NCBI GenBank assembly: GCA_009929605.1
Contig: SAAC01000002.1
Coordinates: 1 to 64,000, forward strand
Source of the DNA: Negativicutes bacterium
GTDB taxonomy: Bacteria; Bacillota; Negativicutes; Veillonellales; Veillonellaceae
Direction: 5' to 3'
Length of the DNA stretch: 64,000 bases
Shown: piece after piece, positions 21,583-56,014 of the stretch
How the letters are laid out: every line of letters starts with the position of its first letter
How positions within the stretch are numbered: position 1 is the stretch's first letter
Made by a program: the position numbers and the translations under genes
Notes under the pieces: generated by a model
Told to the model about the DNA's origin: nothing
The model's database searches: none
The model's input: the letters and a program-made list of their open reading frames with translations, nothing else

Positions 21583-21671
21583 TGGTGCCGAGGACCGGAA
21601 TCGAACCGGTACGGTTATTTCTAACCGACGGATTTTAAGTCCGTTGCGTCTGCCTGTTCCGCCACCCCGGC
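21583..21671 (-). tRNA. tRNA-Leu (anticodon TAA)
   Basis: This class II tRNA has a 7-bp acceptor stem (GCCGGGG/CCTCGGC), an anticodon loop CTTAAAA and a long variable arm. The CCA end is encoded. It is the last gene of the five-tRNA transcript. Confidence 0.95.
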
Positions 21672-21695
21672 ATGGGTAACGTTAGTATGTAATTA

Positions 21696-21770
<75 letters not shown>

Positions 21771-21782
21771 ATAGTGGAATAA

Positions 21783-21857
21783 TGGAGCGGGAAACGAGAT
21801 TCGAACTCGCGACCCCCGCCTTGGCAAGGCGGTGCTCTACCGCTGAGCTATTCCCGC
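21783..21857 (-). tRNA. tRNA-Gly (anticodon GCC)
   Basis: The acceptor stem GCGGGAA pairs with TTCCCGC, the anticodon loop is TTGCCAA, and CCA is encoded. Confidence 0.95.
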
Positions 21858-21864
21858 ATGTACA

Positions 21865-21940
<76 letters not shown>

Positions 21941-21949
21941 ATACATAAA

Positions 21950-22025
21950 TGGCGACCCCGATCAGATTTGAACTGACGATCTTCGCCGTGACAGGGCGAC
22001 ATGTTAACCGCTACACCACGGGGCC
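21950..22025 (-). tRNA. tRNA-Asp (anticodon GTC)
   Basis: The acceptor stem starts GGCCCCG, the anticodon loop is CTGTCAC, and CCA is encoded. It is the first tRNA after the promoter at 22045-22073. Confidence 0.95.
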
Positions 22026-47554: not shown

Positions 47555-48085
47555 CTATACTTCTGGTTCAATCAAACCATAGGACCCATTATGACGACGA
47601 TATACAACATTATATGTTTCAGTTTCCGAATTGAAGAACATAAAGAAGTCATGACCTACAAGATTCATTTGTAAAATAGCTTCTTCCACATCCATAGGAC
47701 GTACAGAGAAGCGTTTCCGTCTTACCACTTCTAATGTATCTTCTTCAATAGGCTTTTCAGGTACTTCAACTTCAGGATGGAATGCACCTTGTTTTTTGAA
47801 ACGTTTAGCCAAACGAGTTTTATGTTTGTGAATTTGACGAATGATTTTATCTACAACTAAATCAATAGCCGCATACATATCAGGATTTGTTTCTACCCCA
47901 CGCAATACGATACCATCAACGAAACAAGTAAGTTCTATAGTGCTTTTATCTTTTACCACAGAAAGTACTGCTTGTGCATCTAACTCTTCATCAAAATAAC
48001 GAGTCAATTTTCCAAGTCTTTTTTCTACATACTCACGAAGAGCCGCAGTTACTTCAATGTTTTTTCCTCTGATTGCTACTTTCAT
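47555..48085 (-). CDS. hpf: Long-form ribosome hibernation promoting factor
   Basis: The 176-residue protein joins an N-terminal RaiA/HPF domain (~1-95; MKVAIRGKNIEVTAALREYVEKRL) to the C-terminal dimerisation domain (~125-176; KRFSVRPMDVEEAILQMNLVGHDFFMF). The long form alone pairs 70S ribosomes into 100S particles in Firmicutes. AAAGGGTG precedes the ATG. The gene seems monocistronic, with its own terminator, and the leader is about 300 bp long. Confidence 0.96.
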   Translation of the reverse strand: MKVAIRGKNIEVTAALREYVEKRLGKLTRYFDEELDAQAVLSVVKDKSTIELTCFVDGIVLRGVETNPDMYAAIDLVVDKIIRQIHKHKTRLAKRFKKQGAFHPEVEVPEKPIEEDTLEVVRRKRFSVRPMDVEEAILQMNLVGHDFFMFFNSETETYNVVYRRHNGSYGLIEPEV

Positions 48086-49185: not shown

Positions 49186-49905
49186 TTAAAGAATTTTAGA
49201 CAAGAATAACTGTAAACGTTCATTTTTAGGATGATCAAATACTTCTGTTGGTGTACCTTCTTCTAGAATCTGACCTTCATCAATGAATAGTACACGAGTT
49301 CCTACCTCTTTAGCAAAGCCCATTTCATGAGTTACAACAACCATTGTCATACCATCTTGTGCTAGGCTCTTCATTACATCCAGTACTTCATGAACCATTT
49401 CAGGATCAAGGGCAGATGTAGGTTCATCAAACAGCATCACCTTTGGTGTCATTGCCAATGCACGCGCAATCGCAACACGTTGTTGTTGACCACCGGATAG
49501 TGATTGAGGATAAGCCTCTGCCTTTTCAGCCAATCCTACACGGTCCAACAATTTACGGCCTCGCTCTTGCGCTTCCGCTTTGGCTGTTTTACGAACTTTT
49601 TCCTGTGCCAACGTTAAATTCTCTAGCACAGTCATATGTGGGAATAAATTAAAACGTTGGAATACCATGCCCACTTCTGTACGCACTGTATTTAACTTAT
49701 CCTTATCAGACAAGTCCATATTATCTACAATAACAGTACCACTTGTAGGCTCTTCTAAATAGTTCATACAACGAAGAACTGTACTTTTGCCAGAGCCAGA
49801 TGGACCAATGATAACCACAACCTCACCTTTTTCGATGTGGAGATCAATACCTTTTAACACTTCATTTTTGCCGAATCTTTTACGAACATTTTCTAGCTTA
49901 ATCAT
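49186..49905 (-). CDS. glnQ: Polar amino-acid ABC transporter ATPase (GlnQ family)
   Basis: The 239-residue ATPase shows Walker [17 protein letters not shown]-loop [14 protein letters not shown], signature [16 protein letters not shown] and Walker [16 protein letters not shown]. These are typical of the polar amino-acid uptake group (GlnQ/HisP/ArtP). It overlaps the permease gene by 4 bp and ends the leftward transport operon. Confidence 0.93.
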
Positions 49906-50558
49906 TTGATATTATATCTCCTTTCTAAGTAGGCTACCAATTGCGAAATACTAACAGTCATAATTAAATAAATAACAGCTACAGTGCCCCAAATTTCAAA
50001 GGATGCATATGTTTTAGCAATTATTAATTGACCACGACGTGTTAGCTCTTCAAAGCCAATAACAGATACTAGAGAGGAATCTTTCAACATGGCGATAAAT
50101 TCATTACCCAATGGTGGAATAATTGCCTTGAACGCTTGTGGCATAATAATATAACGCATAGTTTGTGCCCAAGATAGACCAAGGGAACGGCCTGCCTCCA
50201 TTTGACCTTTATCAATGGATTGAATACCAGCGCGGAAAATTTCAGATACATAAGCACCAGAGTTAATACTGCATGCAGTTACCGCAGCAACAAATGGATC
50301 AATACGGCTTCCGATAATCATTGGCAATGCAAAGTAAATCAAGAAAATTTGTACCAATAATGGGGTACCACGGATAATGTCTACATAGCATCTAGCTAAT
50401 AAACGAACAATTTTTAAATTTGATAAGTTAGCTAACGCTACTAACATACCAATAAAGAAGCCACAGCCTACACTCATGGTAGTAATTTTAACTGTAACTA
50501 GAGCCCCTTGTAATAATAGAGGCAGGTTATCTAAAATTAGACTCCAATTAAAACCCAT
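49902..50558 (-). CDS. Polar amino-acid ABC transporter permease
   Basis: The 218-residue protein has about five membrane segments and the HisM/GlnP-type motif block: [14 protein letters not shown] near the N-terminus, [20 protein letters not shown], and the EAA loop [33 protein letters not shown]. One permease gene suggests a homodimeric channel. It lies between the aminotransferase and ATPase genes. Confidence 0.94.
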
Positions 50559-50648
50559 ATCGATTCTCCTAATTTTGAAAGCTGAACATACTATACTAAC
50601 AATCTATTATACTCATTTTTTCCATGTTATGCAAAATATTTCACAGAT

Positions 50649-51830
50649 TTAGAGTAAAGATTCATAAGCTCGTTTCATTCTAGTAACAGCTTCAACAATA
50701 TTATCCTCTGAAATACCTGTGAAATTCAAACGTATATGATTCGTATTATCCTTGGTACTATAGAATGGCAAACCTGGTACAAAACTTACTTTCTCTTTAA
50801 TGCACGCATGGAATAAATCATAACAATGAATATTGTCAGGAATGGTCACCCACAAGAAAAATCCACCTAAAGGTTTTATAAATCTAAATTCTGGCAATTC
50901 TCTCGCCAATGTATCACACAATGTATCTAAACGTTTTTTATATACATTACACATATAACTAACGTGATCATCATAGGAATAGTTAACCATATATTGCTCA
51001 ATGATAGCATGATTTAACGCCGTACTATGTAGGTCCACAGATTCCTTTGTTAATTCTAATTGATCTACAATTGTTTTATGACCAATCACATACCCCACAC
51101 GCAATCCTGGACTAAATGTTTTTGAAAAACTCCCCATGTACACAACTTGCCTTTTTGTATCCATAGATGCCAGTGATGGACGATTCTCATCTGAATAGTT
51201 GATTTCACCGTATGGATTGTCTTCCAACACCATCAAATCATATTGATTCACAAGATTCATAAAGGCCTTACGTTTTTCCACACTCCAATATCGTCCCGTA
51301 GGATTTTGAAAGTCTGGTATGACATAGATAGCTTTCACCTTATCATGGCTAGATAGATATTGCTCTAGAGCAACAAGGTCCATGCCATCATCGTCAGATG
51401 GTATATTTTGAATATAACCACCATAAAAGGCAAATGTATTCATCCCATCAATATAAGAAGGTGTTTCCACTAATACAATATCACCTTCATCGATAAATAC
51501 ACGGCCTAATAAATCCATACATTGTGTGGACCCAGTAGTAACCAAAATATTATCTTCTGACACATTCATTTCATATCTCAATTTCACGATATGAGCAATA
51601 CGTGTACGCAAACCAAGTACACCACCATAATTACCATATTGTAATAAATTTTTACCACGTTCCTCTAAAATTTGTTTTGAGCAAGCAATCATTTCCTCAA
51701 TAGGAAACATATCAGCAGCAGGTACACCTTCAGCTAAGGACAAACAACCTTGGCTGTCCTTTGCCATCTCAGCAATTTCAGATAATTTTACGCGACTCAT
51801 ACGGGCCGCATATAAATTTTCACAGTTCAT
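50649..51830 (-). CDS. PLP-dependent class I/II aminotransferase
   Basis: The 393-residue fold-type I protein has the PLP lysine in MGSFSKTFSPGLRVGY (~235) and an NPYGEINYSD block (~205). The FQNPTGRYWS segment (~165) and C-terminal Arg region NHIRLNFTG are also typical. Closest by eye are 2-aminoadipate/multi-substrate (LysN, MocR-like C-domain) enzymes; no GntR domain is present. The start at 51830 has GGAG 6 nt upstream. It lies inside the ABC transport operon, so its substrate may be the imported amino acid. Confidence 0.88.
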   Translation of the reverse strand: MNCENLYAARMSRVKLSEIAEMAKDSQGCLSLAEGVPAADMFPIEEMIACSKQILEERGKNLLQYGNYGGVLGLRTRIAHIVKLRYEMNVSEDNILVTTGSTQCMDLLGRVFIDEGDIVLVETPSYIDGMNTFAFYGGYIQNIPSDDDGMDLVALEQYLSSHDKVKAIYVIPDFQNPTGRYWSVEKRKAFMNLVNQYDLMVLEDNPYGEINYSDENRPSLASMDTKRQVVYMGSFSKTFSPGLRVGYVIGHKTIVDQLELTKESVDLHSTALNHAIIEQYMVNYSYDDHVSYMCNVYKKRLDTLCDTLARELPEFRFIKPLGGFFLWVTIPDNIHCYDLFHACIKEKVSFVPGLPFYSTKDNTNHIRLNFTGISEDNIVEAVTRMKRAYESLL

Positions 51831-51913
51831 AATGATCTCCATCTACATACATAAAATAGTATTGGCCACACCGATTTTTTAACACACGTCTATAATACGT
51901 ATATACTAACGTC

Positions 51914-51947
51914 AAAATAACAGAGATGATATCATCTCTGTTATTTT
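51914..51947 (-). terminator. Perfect 34-bp palindrome, probable terminator or attenuator
   Basis: Positions 51914-51930 pair exactly with 51931-51947, centred on GATATC. It lies between a binding-protein gene and the aminotransferase gene, with TTATTTTGAC at its minus-strand end. Partial termination here would make binding proteins more abundant than the permease. Confidence 0.65.
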
Positions 51948-51965
51948 ATATGCTAGTGTTACAAA

Positions 51966-52727
51966 TTATTTGATATTACCAAACCATTTATCTTCTAATT
52001 TTTTGTATTCCCCATTGTCTTTCATTTTCTTAAGGGCTGCATTAATCTCTTTAGTCAATTCTGGATTATTTTTAGCTACGCCAATACCCAATTGATGAGA
52101 TTGTAAACCTACAGGAACAATCTTTAGATTTGCCATATTACCTACTTGAATAAAGTATTTAGCGATTGGTTCATCGAGCATTACGATTTCAACATTACCA
52201 TTTTCTAAATCTTGTAGCATATTAGGAATTGTATCGAATTCTTTTACTGTTGTACCAGGTTTCTCTTTAGCCAAGAATGCACCAGTTGTACCAATTTGAG
52301 CTGCTACAGTTTTACCGGCAATATCAGCTTCACCATTAACAGTATTATTGTCCTTTTTTACCACCATAATCAAATTAACTTGGTAGTATGGATCCGAAAA
52401 ATCAATTTTTTCCAAACGTTCTTTTGTGATAACCATACCAGATGCGATAGCATCAATTTGGCCAGACTGTAATGCTGGGATTAACGCATCAAAGCCCATG
52501 CTCACAAATTCAACTTTTTTACCAGTTTCTTTGCCAATAGCATTCGCTAAATCTACATCAAAGCCTTGGTATTTATCACCATCAGCAAATTCGAATGGTG
52601 GATATGTAGTTTCTGCTGCAAATTTTATAGTATCTTTTTTAGGTGCTTGTTCGCTGCCACAACCTGCAAATACACCAATCATTAATGTTGCACCCAGTAC
52701 AAGGGCTAATGATTTCTTTAATTTCAC
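51966..52727 (-). CDS. Amino-acid ABC transporter substrate-binding lipoprotein (second copy)
   Basis: The 253-residue protein has a lipoprotein signal peptide with lipobox VFAGC (Cys ~23) and a bacterial solute-binding family 3 domain: FAAETTYPPFEFADGDKYQGFDVDLANAIG, ALIPALQSGQIDAIASGMVIT and AQIGTTGAFLAKE. It probably binds a polar amino acid. It resembles the product of the gene upstream, so the pair looks like an old duplication. A perfect palindrome follows it. Confidence 0.92.
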   Translation of the reverse strand: MKLKKSLALVLGATLMIGVFAGCGSEQAPKKDTIKFAAETTYPPFEFADGDKYQGFDVDLANAIGKETGKKVEFVSMGFDALIPALQSGQIDAIASGMVITKERLEKIDFSDPYYQVNLIMVVKKDNNTVNGEADIAGKTVAAQIGTTGAFLAKEKPGTTVKEFDTIPNMLQDLENGNVEIVMLDEPIAKYFIQVGNMANLKIVPVGLQSHQLGIGVAKNNPELTKEINAALKKMKDNGEYKKLEDKWFGNIK

Positions 52728-52829
52728 AATAATTCTCCCTTTAAAACTCTCAAAGAATATTTCTAATTACTTGATATTTATCATATGAACAGATTCTTAT
52801 AACCTATTCTCAGGTCCTATTTTACTATA

Positions 52830-53639
52830 TTATTTAAATTCTAGCACTACTGGCATATCAGCAGGGGCATCTGTATTGAACCATTTTTTATACAACGTAT
52901 TGAATTCACCACTTGCTTTTAAATCAGCAATAGCTTTATTGATTTCAGTTTGTAGTTCTTTATTATCTTTACCAATCGCAAGACCTAAGTATTCTTTAGT
53001 ATTTGGATATGTAAATACTTTTACATTTTCATCTTTATGAACAGTACTATAATATTGAGCTATAGGTAAATCGATTACAGCGGCTTGGACACCACCATTT
53101 TTAAGTTCTAATAAGGCTTCATTACTGTGATCAAACTCTTTAACTGTTACACCTTCTGTTTTATGAGCTAAATCAGCGCCAGTAGTACCTAATTGAGCCG
53201 CTAATGTCAAACCTTTAAGATCTTCCAGACTATTGATTGTTGTACCATCTTTATAAATTATAGCTAATGCATTTTCATAATAAGGGGAAGAAAATAACAC
53301 TTTCTCACTTCTTGCTTTTGTAATTGTCATACCAGATGCAGCTACATCAATATCTTTAGTAGTTAATGCAGGAATCAATGCATCAAAAGAAACATTTTTA
53401 AGTTCTACATCACGATTCATCTTTTTACCGATAGCACGAATTAATTCAATATCAAAGCCATCATAATCAGATGTTTTATCATTTTTAAATTCAAATGGTA
53501 CAAATGTCGCATTAGTACCAACAACTAATTTCTTTTGAGCCGCTGGTTTACTATCATTACCACAACCAGCAACAAATGCTGCAGTCATTACCACTGCCAA
53601 ACCTGTGAGCATTAATTTTTTTACTTTTTTACTAATCAT
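52830..53639 (-). CDS. Amino-acid ABC transporter substrate-binding lipoprotein (first copy)
   Basis: The 269-residue protein has a signal peptide with lipobox FVAGC (Cys ~26) and the family 3 solute-binding pattern: VGTNATFVPFEFKNDKTSDYDGFDIELIRAIG, ALIPALTTKDIDVAASGMTIT and AQLGTTGADLAHK. It is the first gene of the transport operon. The two binding proteins may feed one permease with different ligands. Confidence 0.92.
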   Translation of the reverse strand: MISKKVKKLMLTGLAVVMTAAFVAGCGNDSKPAAQKKLVVGTNATFVPFEFKNDKTSDYDGFDIELIRAIGKKMNRDVELKNVSFDALIPALTTKDIDVAASGMTITKARSEKVLFSSPYYENALAIIYKDGTTINSLEDLKGLTLAAQLGTTGADLAHKTEGVTVKEFDHSNEALLELKNGGVQAAVIDLPIAQYYSTVHKDENVKVFTYPNTKEYLGLAIGKDNKELQTEINKAIADLKASGEFNTLYKKWFNTDAPADMPVVLEFK

Positions 53640-53736: not shown

Positions 53737-53766
53737 ATTATATACGAACTTGTATATTTATGTCAA
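53737..53766 (-). promoter_or_regulatory. Promoter of the amino-acid transport operon
   Basis: On the minus strand TTGACA (53761-53766), an 18-nt spacer and TATAAT (53737-53742). The leader to the first gene is about 90 nt. Confidence 0.75.
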
Positions 53767-53906: not shown

Positions 53907-53940
53907 CAAAAAAGGCATATGAGAAAAGCCTCATATGCCT
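53907..53940 (-). terminator. Terminator of the non-coding RNA
   Basis: An 11-bp stem (53913-53923 with 53930-53940) is followed on the minus strand by TTTTTTGAT. Confidence 0.9.
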
Positions 53941-54142
53941 GTTATACGGCTGACCTGGTCTTTGCCCCCACACTCGCCTGCTGGAAGGTTCGCTCATAAG
54001 TCTTAGACTCCCCACTACTACTTCTCTCGGTTTTTCCGGCAGGACTTACATCTAAGCCGCACCATGCTCACAGTCCCTTGGACTGCTTATGTGGATCGTT
54101 TTGCCTGCGACTGGCTTCGACTTGCAACCACAGACCCGTATA
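53907..54142 (-). ncRNA. Structured non-coding RNA of about 235 nt, family not certain
   Basis: A promoter at 54149-54178 and the terminator at 53907-53940 frame a transcript far richer in GC than its flanks. No ORF in it looks like a protein. Helices visible by eye include a closing stem GGTCT..TTGC with GCAA..AGACC (4-nt bulge), a hairpin CAGTCC-AAG-GGACTG, and CCTGC pairing with GCAGG. TAAGTC/GACTTA crosses TTAGA/TCTAA, so a pseudoknot or alternative folds are possible. The 3' part reads GGTCAGCCGTATAACAGGC. It lacks tmRNA, RNase P, SRP and cobalamin-switch signatures. The raiA-motif RNA is my leading guess and 6S RNA the alternative; neither was verified. Confidence 0.72.
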
Positions 54143-54148
54143 TTAAGA

Positions 54149-54178
54149 ATTATATAAGAATTATATAGAAACTGTCTA
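54149..54178 (-). promoter_or_regulatory. Promoter of the non-coding RNA
   Basis: On the minus strand TAGACA (54173-54178), an 18-nt spacer and TATAAT (54149-54154). A second TATAAT lies at 54160-54165, too close to this -35 box. The predicted RNA start is near 54142. Confidence 0.7.
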
Positions 54179-54481: not shown

Positions 54482-55084
54482 ATGTTTATGTTATCATTAA
54501 TGCAGCCATCAGGGTTGTATGAATTAGAAAAGGATAGCTTGGATGCCATTAGTGCGCAGCTCTTGCAAATGATACAAGTGAAAAGTCAACATTTGTATCA
54601 GCATTCTCTACAAGTTTCTAATTATGCAGTCAGCATTGCTGCTAAAATGGGTTTACCTTACAATGAAATAGAACAAATACGCCACGCAGCTTTATTACAT
54701 GATTTGGGTCTGTTAATGATTCCTAACTCATTAATTCAGAAATCACCGTATTTAAATAAACAAGAAATGTCTAAATACAAGCAACATGCCGCTAGTGGTG
54801 CCAATATGATTGAAAACTATTCTTGTTGCCAACAGATTCTCCCATATATTCGCTATCATCATGAAAAGTGGGATGGCTCTGGTTATCCTAAACACCTTCG
54901 TGGCGCTAATATTCCATTAGGTGCACGAATTATTGCTGTAGCTGATTACTATGATTCTACGGTGAATCCATCTACTGAGTTTTGGGCAAAAACAAAATCC
55001 AAAGCCAAAGAAGAATTATTTAGTGCCTCTGGCACCCTCTTTGATCCAGATGTGGTAAAAGCTTTTATCGATGTATTGGGCTAA
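54482..55084 (+). CDS. HD-GYP domain phosphohydrolase, stand-alone
   Basis: The 200-residue protein is a bare HD-GYP domain. It has H in HSLQVSNYAVSIAAKMG, HD in AALLHDLGLLMIP, and HHEKWDGSGYPKHLRGANIPLGARIIAVADYYDS, which holds the HH and GYP signatures. Such domains usually hydrolyse cyclic di-GMP or related dinucleotides. No receiver, membrane or sensor domain is attached. AAAGGGG precedes the ATG. No GGDEF cyclase gene lies in this window. Confidence 0.9.
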   Translation: MFMLSLMQPSGLYELEKDSLDAISAQLLQMIQVKSQHLYQHSLQVSNYAVSIAAKMGLPYNEIEQIRHAALLHDLGLLMIPNSLIQKSPYLNKQEMSKYKQHAASGANMIENYSCCQQILPYIRYHHEKWDGSGYPKHLRGANIPLGARIIAVADYYDSTVNPSTEFWAKTKSKAKEELFSASGTLFDPDVVKAFIDVLG

Positions 55085-55136: not shown

Positions 55137-55898
55137 TCAATAAGCCCCACTTGCCAAAGTAAGGGCTTTTATTGTGTGTGGATGATAGGACTGTATAATA
55201 TGTGCTGCTGCCTCAAGTGTAGCCCCTGTAGTATAAATATCATCGATTAACAATACATCACAATTTGTCCAAAAAGCTACATTACGATATATAGCTTTCA
55301 TCATAAAAGCATCTGATACATTTTTTCGTCGTTCATTACCAGTGAGACTCCACATATCTTTACCTGTATCAAGCTTGTGTAAACAGTCACACCACCGCCA
55401 ATATGCATGAATATTATTATCTCTCACTATAGTGTCTCTCATCTTTTTAACAACTCTCTTTCCATTATGTAGTTCATGATTAACTACACCTTTATTTTTT
55501 TCATACACCCACTCTTTAAATAATAGATCCACCTGATTATAACCTCTTGTCTTCAATTTACCCTTACTTGTTGGTATAGGTACTACGAGATGTGGCCTCA
55601 AGTTGAGTTCATGTTCATTCATGTAAAAATCAAAGCAACGTAAAAAAGGAACAGCCCCTTTGGACTGTTCCTTTTTTGCGTTGAATTTTACATCATATAT
55701 CATTGTCTTAACGCCCCCTGTGTAATGAGCCAATATCCAAGCCTCATTTAGGGATTGTAATAATTCACTCGGTACTTGGCGTATCGCCAGTACCGAATCA
55801 AAGCACTCTGGACACCATTCGCCTTGTTCATTCACTGGTGCGCCACAATTCGGACATGTAGGTGGAAATAGAAAATCTAATAGTAATCTCCCTATCAT
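55137..55898 (-). CDS. comF: ComF-family phosphoribosyltransferase-like protein
   Basis: The 253-residue protein has an N-terminal zinc-ribbon (CPNCGAP..WCPEC, ~13-33) and a C-terminal phosphoribosyltransferase fold with the PRPP loop VLLIDDIYTTGATLEAAA. ComFC proteins are needed for DNA uptake in competent species, probably in handling incoming single strands. The start at 55898 has GGAG 7 nt upstream. A longer frame from 55937 lacks one. Its last codons overlap a plus-strand hairpin that may end the converging HD-GYP transcript. Confidence 0.9.
   Translation of the reverse strand: MIGRLLLDFLFPPTCPNCGAPVNEQGEWCPECFDSVLAIRQVPSELLQSLNEAWILAHYTGGVKTMIYDVKFNAKKEQSKGAVPFLRCFDFYMNEHELNLRPHLVVPIPTSKGKLKTRGYNQVDLLFKEWVYEKNKGVVNHELHNGKRVVKKMRDTIVRDNNIHAYWRWCDCLHKLDTGKDMWSLTGNERRKNVSDAFMMKAIYRNVAFWTNCDVLLIDDIYTTGATLEAAAHIIQSYHPHTIKALTLASGAY
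55142..55172 (+). terminator. Probable terminator of the HD-GYP gene, inside the comF 3' end
   Basis: AAGCCC (55142-55147) pairs with GGGCTT (55163-55168), with an inner ACTT/AAGT helix, followed by TTATTG on the plus strand. Confidence 0.5.
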
Positions 55899-56014
55899 CT
55901 GTCTACTCCTATATGAAATAAAATTCAACACGTTCATATTTAATTAGTTCACATACTTATATTTTATTATAGCACTTTCTACCATAGTATATGAGTATCA
56001 TAACTAATACTATA

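Follow-up and report, generated by a model that had tools for sequence, protein, structure and literature searches.

What kind of RNA lies between an amino-acid transport operon and an HD-GYP gene in a Veillonella genome, and what might it do in such a cell? The segment belongs to the window, by which we mean the whole 64,000-nucleotide stretch of DNA that was analysed. An earlier note, made from the sequence alone, had proposed here a structured RNA of the raiA-motif or the 6S type and, if neither fitted, a new RNA. The raiA RNA motif is named after the hpf/raiA gene, and the RNA, also called ModT, is one of the best-conserved bacterial RNAs for which the field has settled on no molecular function. 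In the literature collection that was searched, no paper links the raiA RNA motif with Veillonella.

In Clostridioides difficile and Clostridium acetobutylicum, raiA RNA is a stable, trans-acting molecule present in large amounts, and a sigma-A promoter and isoforms of ~210 and 240 nt have been described in clostridia (PMC11706538). Its very high abundance in growing cells, its loss in stationary phase and its action in trans are documented for clostridia only (PMC11706538). Loss of the RNA impairs growth transition (C. difficile), sporulation, and aggregation (C. acetobutylicum), and in C. difficile the effect on sporulation is mediated by DccA, a GGDEF protein, and by c-di-GMP (PMC11706538). 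A broader role has already been argued by the same authors from non-sporulating hosts, and they raise the question whether processes under c-di-GMP control are a general target of the orthologues (PMC11706538).

Identity and boundaries of the RNA

When the window was searched with Rfam covariance models, the raiA RNA family (RF03072) was matched over the full model (1-209) with 197.1 bits and an E-value of 1.4e-50, the curated cut-off being 101.3 bits. The segment is almost certainly the raiA motif (ModT) RNA gene of a Veillonella species, and it is present as a single copy in the 2.0-Mb assembly. The raiA-motif candidate of the earlier note is borne out by this match, which also removes the option of a new RNA; because the family is already known, this copy is ordinary and not new in kind.

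The competing candidate was a 6S-type RNA, which would mimic an open promoter and hold RNA polymerase. Size and a long terminal stem are similar at first sight, and the gene stands alone, but RF00013 is unmatched at the RNA locus even at permissive E-values, and the genome's own 6S RNA was detected at another site (G000:C193:19652-19823, RF00013, 81.8 bits). The raiA core with its pseudoknots also differs from the single long hairpin with a central bubble expected of 6S RNA, and there is next to no doubt that the 6S candidate is wrong. A protein-coding gene was considered and rejected: the longest overlapping ORF has 68 aa and a GTG start, in agreement with the earlier view that no credible ORF is present, and the lengths of relatives shift by indels (196-229 nt) that fall in loops, a pattern of RNA and not of protein.

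The raiA RNA reads as a stand-alone gene with its own predicted promoter and 3' end (Table 1), and both the promoter and the strong terminator described earlier were recovered. Transcription is predicted to start near 54142-54144 on the minus strand, one terminator was found in the region (0.3 expected), and the predicted transcript of ~236 nt equals the long clostridial ModT isoform in size. Five further loci from Veillonella and its family, with diverged flanks, have the motif TAGACA-17/18-TATAAT equally far upstream of the RNA, and at least four of them (L022, L025, L026 and L031) have a separate hairpin with a U-run, recognized by eye, on the 3' side of the RNA. Certain other families have a U-run right after P1, and in these P1 itself may act as the terminator.

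Table 1. Features at and around the raiA RNA locus (window positions unless a locus is named)
Feature	Position	Strand	Remarks
raiA motif RNA / ModT (RF03072)	53941..54144	-	204 nt; P1-P8 core, pk-1 and pk-2; Rfam and covariation
Promoter TAGACA-18-TATAAT	54149..54178	-	11/12 consensus positions
Intrinsic terminator	53907..53940; stem and U-run at 53940..53913	-	12-bp stem and U-run; predicted 3' end
HD-GYP domain protein	54482..55084	+	stand-alone, 200 aa; sole HD_5 match in genome; divergent to RNA
comFC-like gene	55137..55937	-	1.0 kb upstream of RNA
Amino-acid ABC transporter genes (two solute-binding proteins, permease, ATPase), with an aminotransferase gene among them	49186..53639	-	between RNA and hpf
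hpf/raiA gene, ribosome hibernation factor	47555..48085	-	Pfam Ribosomal_S30AE and S30AE_C
Promoter TTGACA-18-TATAAT (perfect)	53737-53766	-	upstream of solute-binding protein gene; separate from RNA promoter
Cluster of five tRNA genes	21586-22025	-	
Zinc-finger gene beside RNA (other genomes)	L113, L118, L121, L122, L124-L128; e.g. L125:9541-9843	- (L125)	

Fold and covariation

The strong evidence for a structured RNA is the Rfam match together with covariation, not folding energy: a 244-nt stretch folds with -79.6 kcal/mol (z -2.2 vs shuffles), which is only moderately better than chance. Covariation was assessed in an alignment of 41 Negativicutes raiA RNA copies, the tested pairs being those of the structure described by cryo-EM (PMC11751092), projected by us onto the window sequence. 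That structure defines two pseudoknots, pk-1 (the P3 loop with the P5/P6 junction, 7 bp) and pk-2 (2 bp with J4-1c) (PMC11751092). Rfam pairs 28-30/173-175 and 50-51/82-83 clash with the projected P3 and pk-2 and were omitted; at 29/174, the 41 sequences hold mostly U-G or G-G, with no covariation.

Standard pairs make up 99.4% of the base-pair cells in the 41 sequences, and as cells count sequences and not independent events, related rows weigh more than once. Changes on both sides were found in 26 of the 53 pairs, as against 17.1 in shuffles and 5-9 when the partner was slid by 1-3 columns. All seven pk-1 pairs and both pk-2 pairs are present in the window sequence, in which pk-1 is formed between UGCGGCU and AGUCGCA, the latter being the loop closed by hairpin P3 (GCC/GGC). 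Within pk-1 (33-39 with 84-90), one position switches between C-G (21) and U-A (20) and another between A-U (35) and G-C (6); in pk-2 (81-82 with 181-182), the switches are U-A (22) to C-G (19) and G-C (39) to A-U (2), and no broken pair occurs at these four positions. Both pseudoknots are thus supported by covariation inside the Negativicutes, and the crossing helices seen in the earlier note are therefore real.

Gene neighbourhood

As described earlier, the RNA is flanked by amino-acid transport genes and by the HD-GYP gene. The comF-like gene lies 1.0 kb upstream and the end of hpf 5.9 kb downstream, neither being immediately adjacent, so that the earlier remark that hpf, about 6 kb off, is not next to the RNA is literally true. 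In a published survey of synteny, comFC was the commonest upstream neighbour (74%) and raiA was found downstream in 66% (PMC11706538). The order in Veillonella is recD2, comF, HD-GYP (divergent), RNA, solute-binding protein(s), permease, ATPase, hpf and secA, and the block of RNA, ABC genes, hpf and secA recurs in many families of Negativicutes, including Spo0A-bearing ones. Because of this recurrence, ABC genes in this position are probably an ancestral feature of much of the class and not a local insertion, and because they belong to a conserved block, the distance to hpf is no argument against raiA-motif identity. An ABC operon inserted in Veillonella only is ruled out by the equal order across the class. 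Exceptions are L046 and L118, where RNA and hpf are not separated by ABC genes, and L130 and L131, in which the RNA has none of the block neighbours.

Other small genes were noted beside the RNA. A small treble-clef zinc-finger gene (MAFQDKTLKCKDCG...; zf_Tbcl in L125) starts ~35-60 nt 3' of the RNA in nine loci, nearly all in Spo0A-bearing genomes, and is not at that place in Veillonella. Small proteins resembling PaaI-type thioesterases, as judged by eye, adjoin the RNA in L113 (4475-4900) and L128 (10157-10579) and lie downstream of it in L130 and L131; the side on which they are found, upstream or downstream, differs between families. The HD-GYP protein of the window bears HHExxDGxGYP, in a genome with no GGDEF or PilZ match. 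Its counterparts in V. caviae, V. denticariosi, V. atypica and V. tobetsuensis share 93-94% identity with it, which assigns the window to a Veillonella genome.

This arrangement invites two other readings of the RNA. It could be a cis-acting, riboswitch-like leader of the amino-acid ABC genes, since Rfam types RF03072 as 'Cis-reg; riboswitch', ABC genes lie 3' of the RNA in many Negativicutes, and an ORF starts only ~35 nt after it in several Spo0A-bearing lineages. However, a strong terminator ends the window RNA and the first ABC gene is ~270 nt away, the downstream gene varies (hpf in L046, the zinc-finger gene in spore-formers, another in L130 and L131), and deletions in two clostridia were complemented from another locus (PMC11706538), which together make a cis leader very unlikely. 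Action on cyclic-dinucleotide signalling via the divergent HD-GYP neighbour is likewise improbable. In its favour, an HD-GYP gene adjoins the RNA divergently both in Veillonella and at several further loci of the class, the genome encodes no HD_5 protein besides this one, and ModT of C. difficile lowers c-di-GMP (PMC11706538), but the genome has neither a detected GGDEF synthase nor a PilZ receptor, the named Megasphaera loci have no raiA RNA within ~6 kb of the HD-GYP gene, and no HD-GYP gene lies beside the RNA in most loci read from Spo0A-bearing genomes. The lone HD-GYP protein could still mean that some cyclic dinucleotide is handled in this cell.

Distribution of the RNA relative to Spo0A and GGDEF

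Profile searches of the window's genome detected no GGDEF domain (8 of 14 control genomes were positive), no PilZ domain (controls positive) and no Spo0A_C domain. When the genome was searched for the c-di-GMP-I riboswitch, no control genome was positive. The wider sample consisted of 250 genomes of the class, which are drafts and in some cases incomplete, with presence and absence also taken from profile searches; the cross-table was transcribed from lists of positive genomes, and its totals agree with the tallies (179, 167 and 56).

The RNA was found in 179 of the 250 genomes, 51 of which have both Spo0A and GGDEF, 51 GGDEF only and 77 neither. All 28 genomes of the window's family carry the RNA and none has Spo0A, while a single GGDEF match was found in one of them; both are thus lacking in this Veillonella and in 26 of the 27 others. 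Another family (f14; a list of 60 genomes that we assembled from the tables) showed no raiA RNA, also in a relaxed search of 20 of its genomes, and GGDEF in 59 of 60. Its members (e.g. G011, G047 and G200) have kept 6S RNA and many GGDEF proteins, and such a clean absence could be used for finding genes lost together with raiA RNA.

Because 77 of 179 RNA-bearing genomes lack both markers and the GGDEF-rich family lacks the RNA, the distribution of the RNA in this class tracks neither sporulation nor the synthesis of c-di-GMP. That many hosts keep it with no recognisable Spo0A or GGDEF synthase argues against sporulation or c-di-GMP, the route known from C. difficile, as its universal function, which appears unlikely, and suggests that its basic job is other than control of spores or c-di-GMP.

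Proposed role in Veillonella

By analogy with C. difficile and C. acetobutylicum, the sigma-A promoter would drive the RNA during growth, yielding an abundant, stable transcript of ~205-236 nt. This transcript would act in trans, possibly bound to protein, and would help the passage from growth to stationary phase, a role known only in spore-forming clostridia that may fail to carry over. Since neither Spo0A nor a GGDEF cyclase was detected in this Veillonella, sporulation or DccA-type c-di-GMP synthesis is unlikely to be what the RNA primarily acts on in this lineage. It is somewhat more plausible than the contrary that the conserved core serves a housekeeping, growth-linked role, for which RNA processing, a ribosome-associated activity and ligand sensing are options among which the field is undecided. 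As the molecular activity itself (ribozyme, ligand sensor or protein scaffold) is undecided, this step is one that we infer.

The effects on sporulation and c-di-GMP would then be downstream, lineage-specific outputs in clostridia. We put forward, tentatively and with some doubt, that Negativicutes lacking Spo0A and GGDEF proteins, Veillonellaceae among them, show the original function of the RNA, stripped of these clostridial outputs. If so, study in such bacteria would expose the core activity, which might for instance lie in RNA processing or be linked to the ribosome, and Veillonella would be a simple genus in which to test it.

Comparison with known systems

Among other RNAs, 6S RNA is likewise a stand-alone structured RNA of ~200 nt, but its fold and sequence are unlike those of the window RNA. 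OLE RNA is a large conserved structured RNA of Bacillota whose function is incompletely known, and in these respects it resembles raiA RNA; its size and fold differ, and no match to it was found at the RNA locus. Compared with ModT of C. difficile and C. acetobutylicum, the window RNA has a short P7/P8 region and resides in a host with no detectable Spo0A or GGDEF, and its locus differs by a divergent HD-GYP neighbour and by the amino-acid ABC genes that separate the RNA from hpf. Shared with the clostridial RNAs are the complete model match, the P1-P8 core with pk-1 and pk-2, a stand-alone gene with a sigma-A-type promoter and a terminator, and, in the wider locus, comFC upstream and raiA/hpf downstream.
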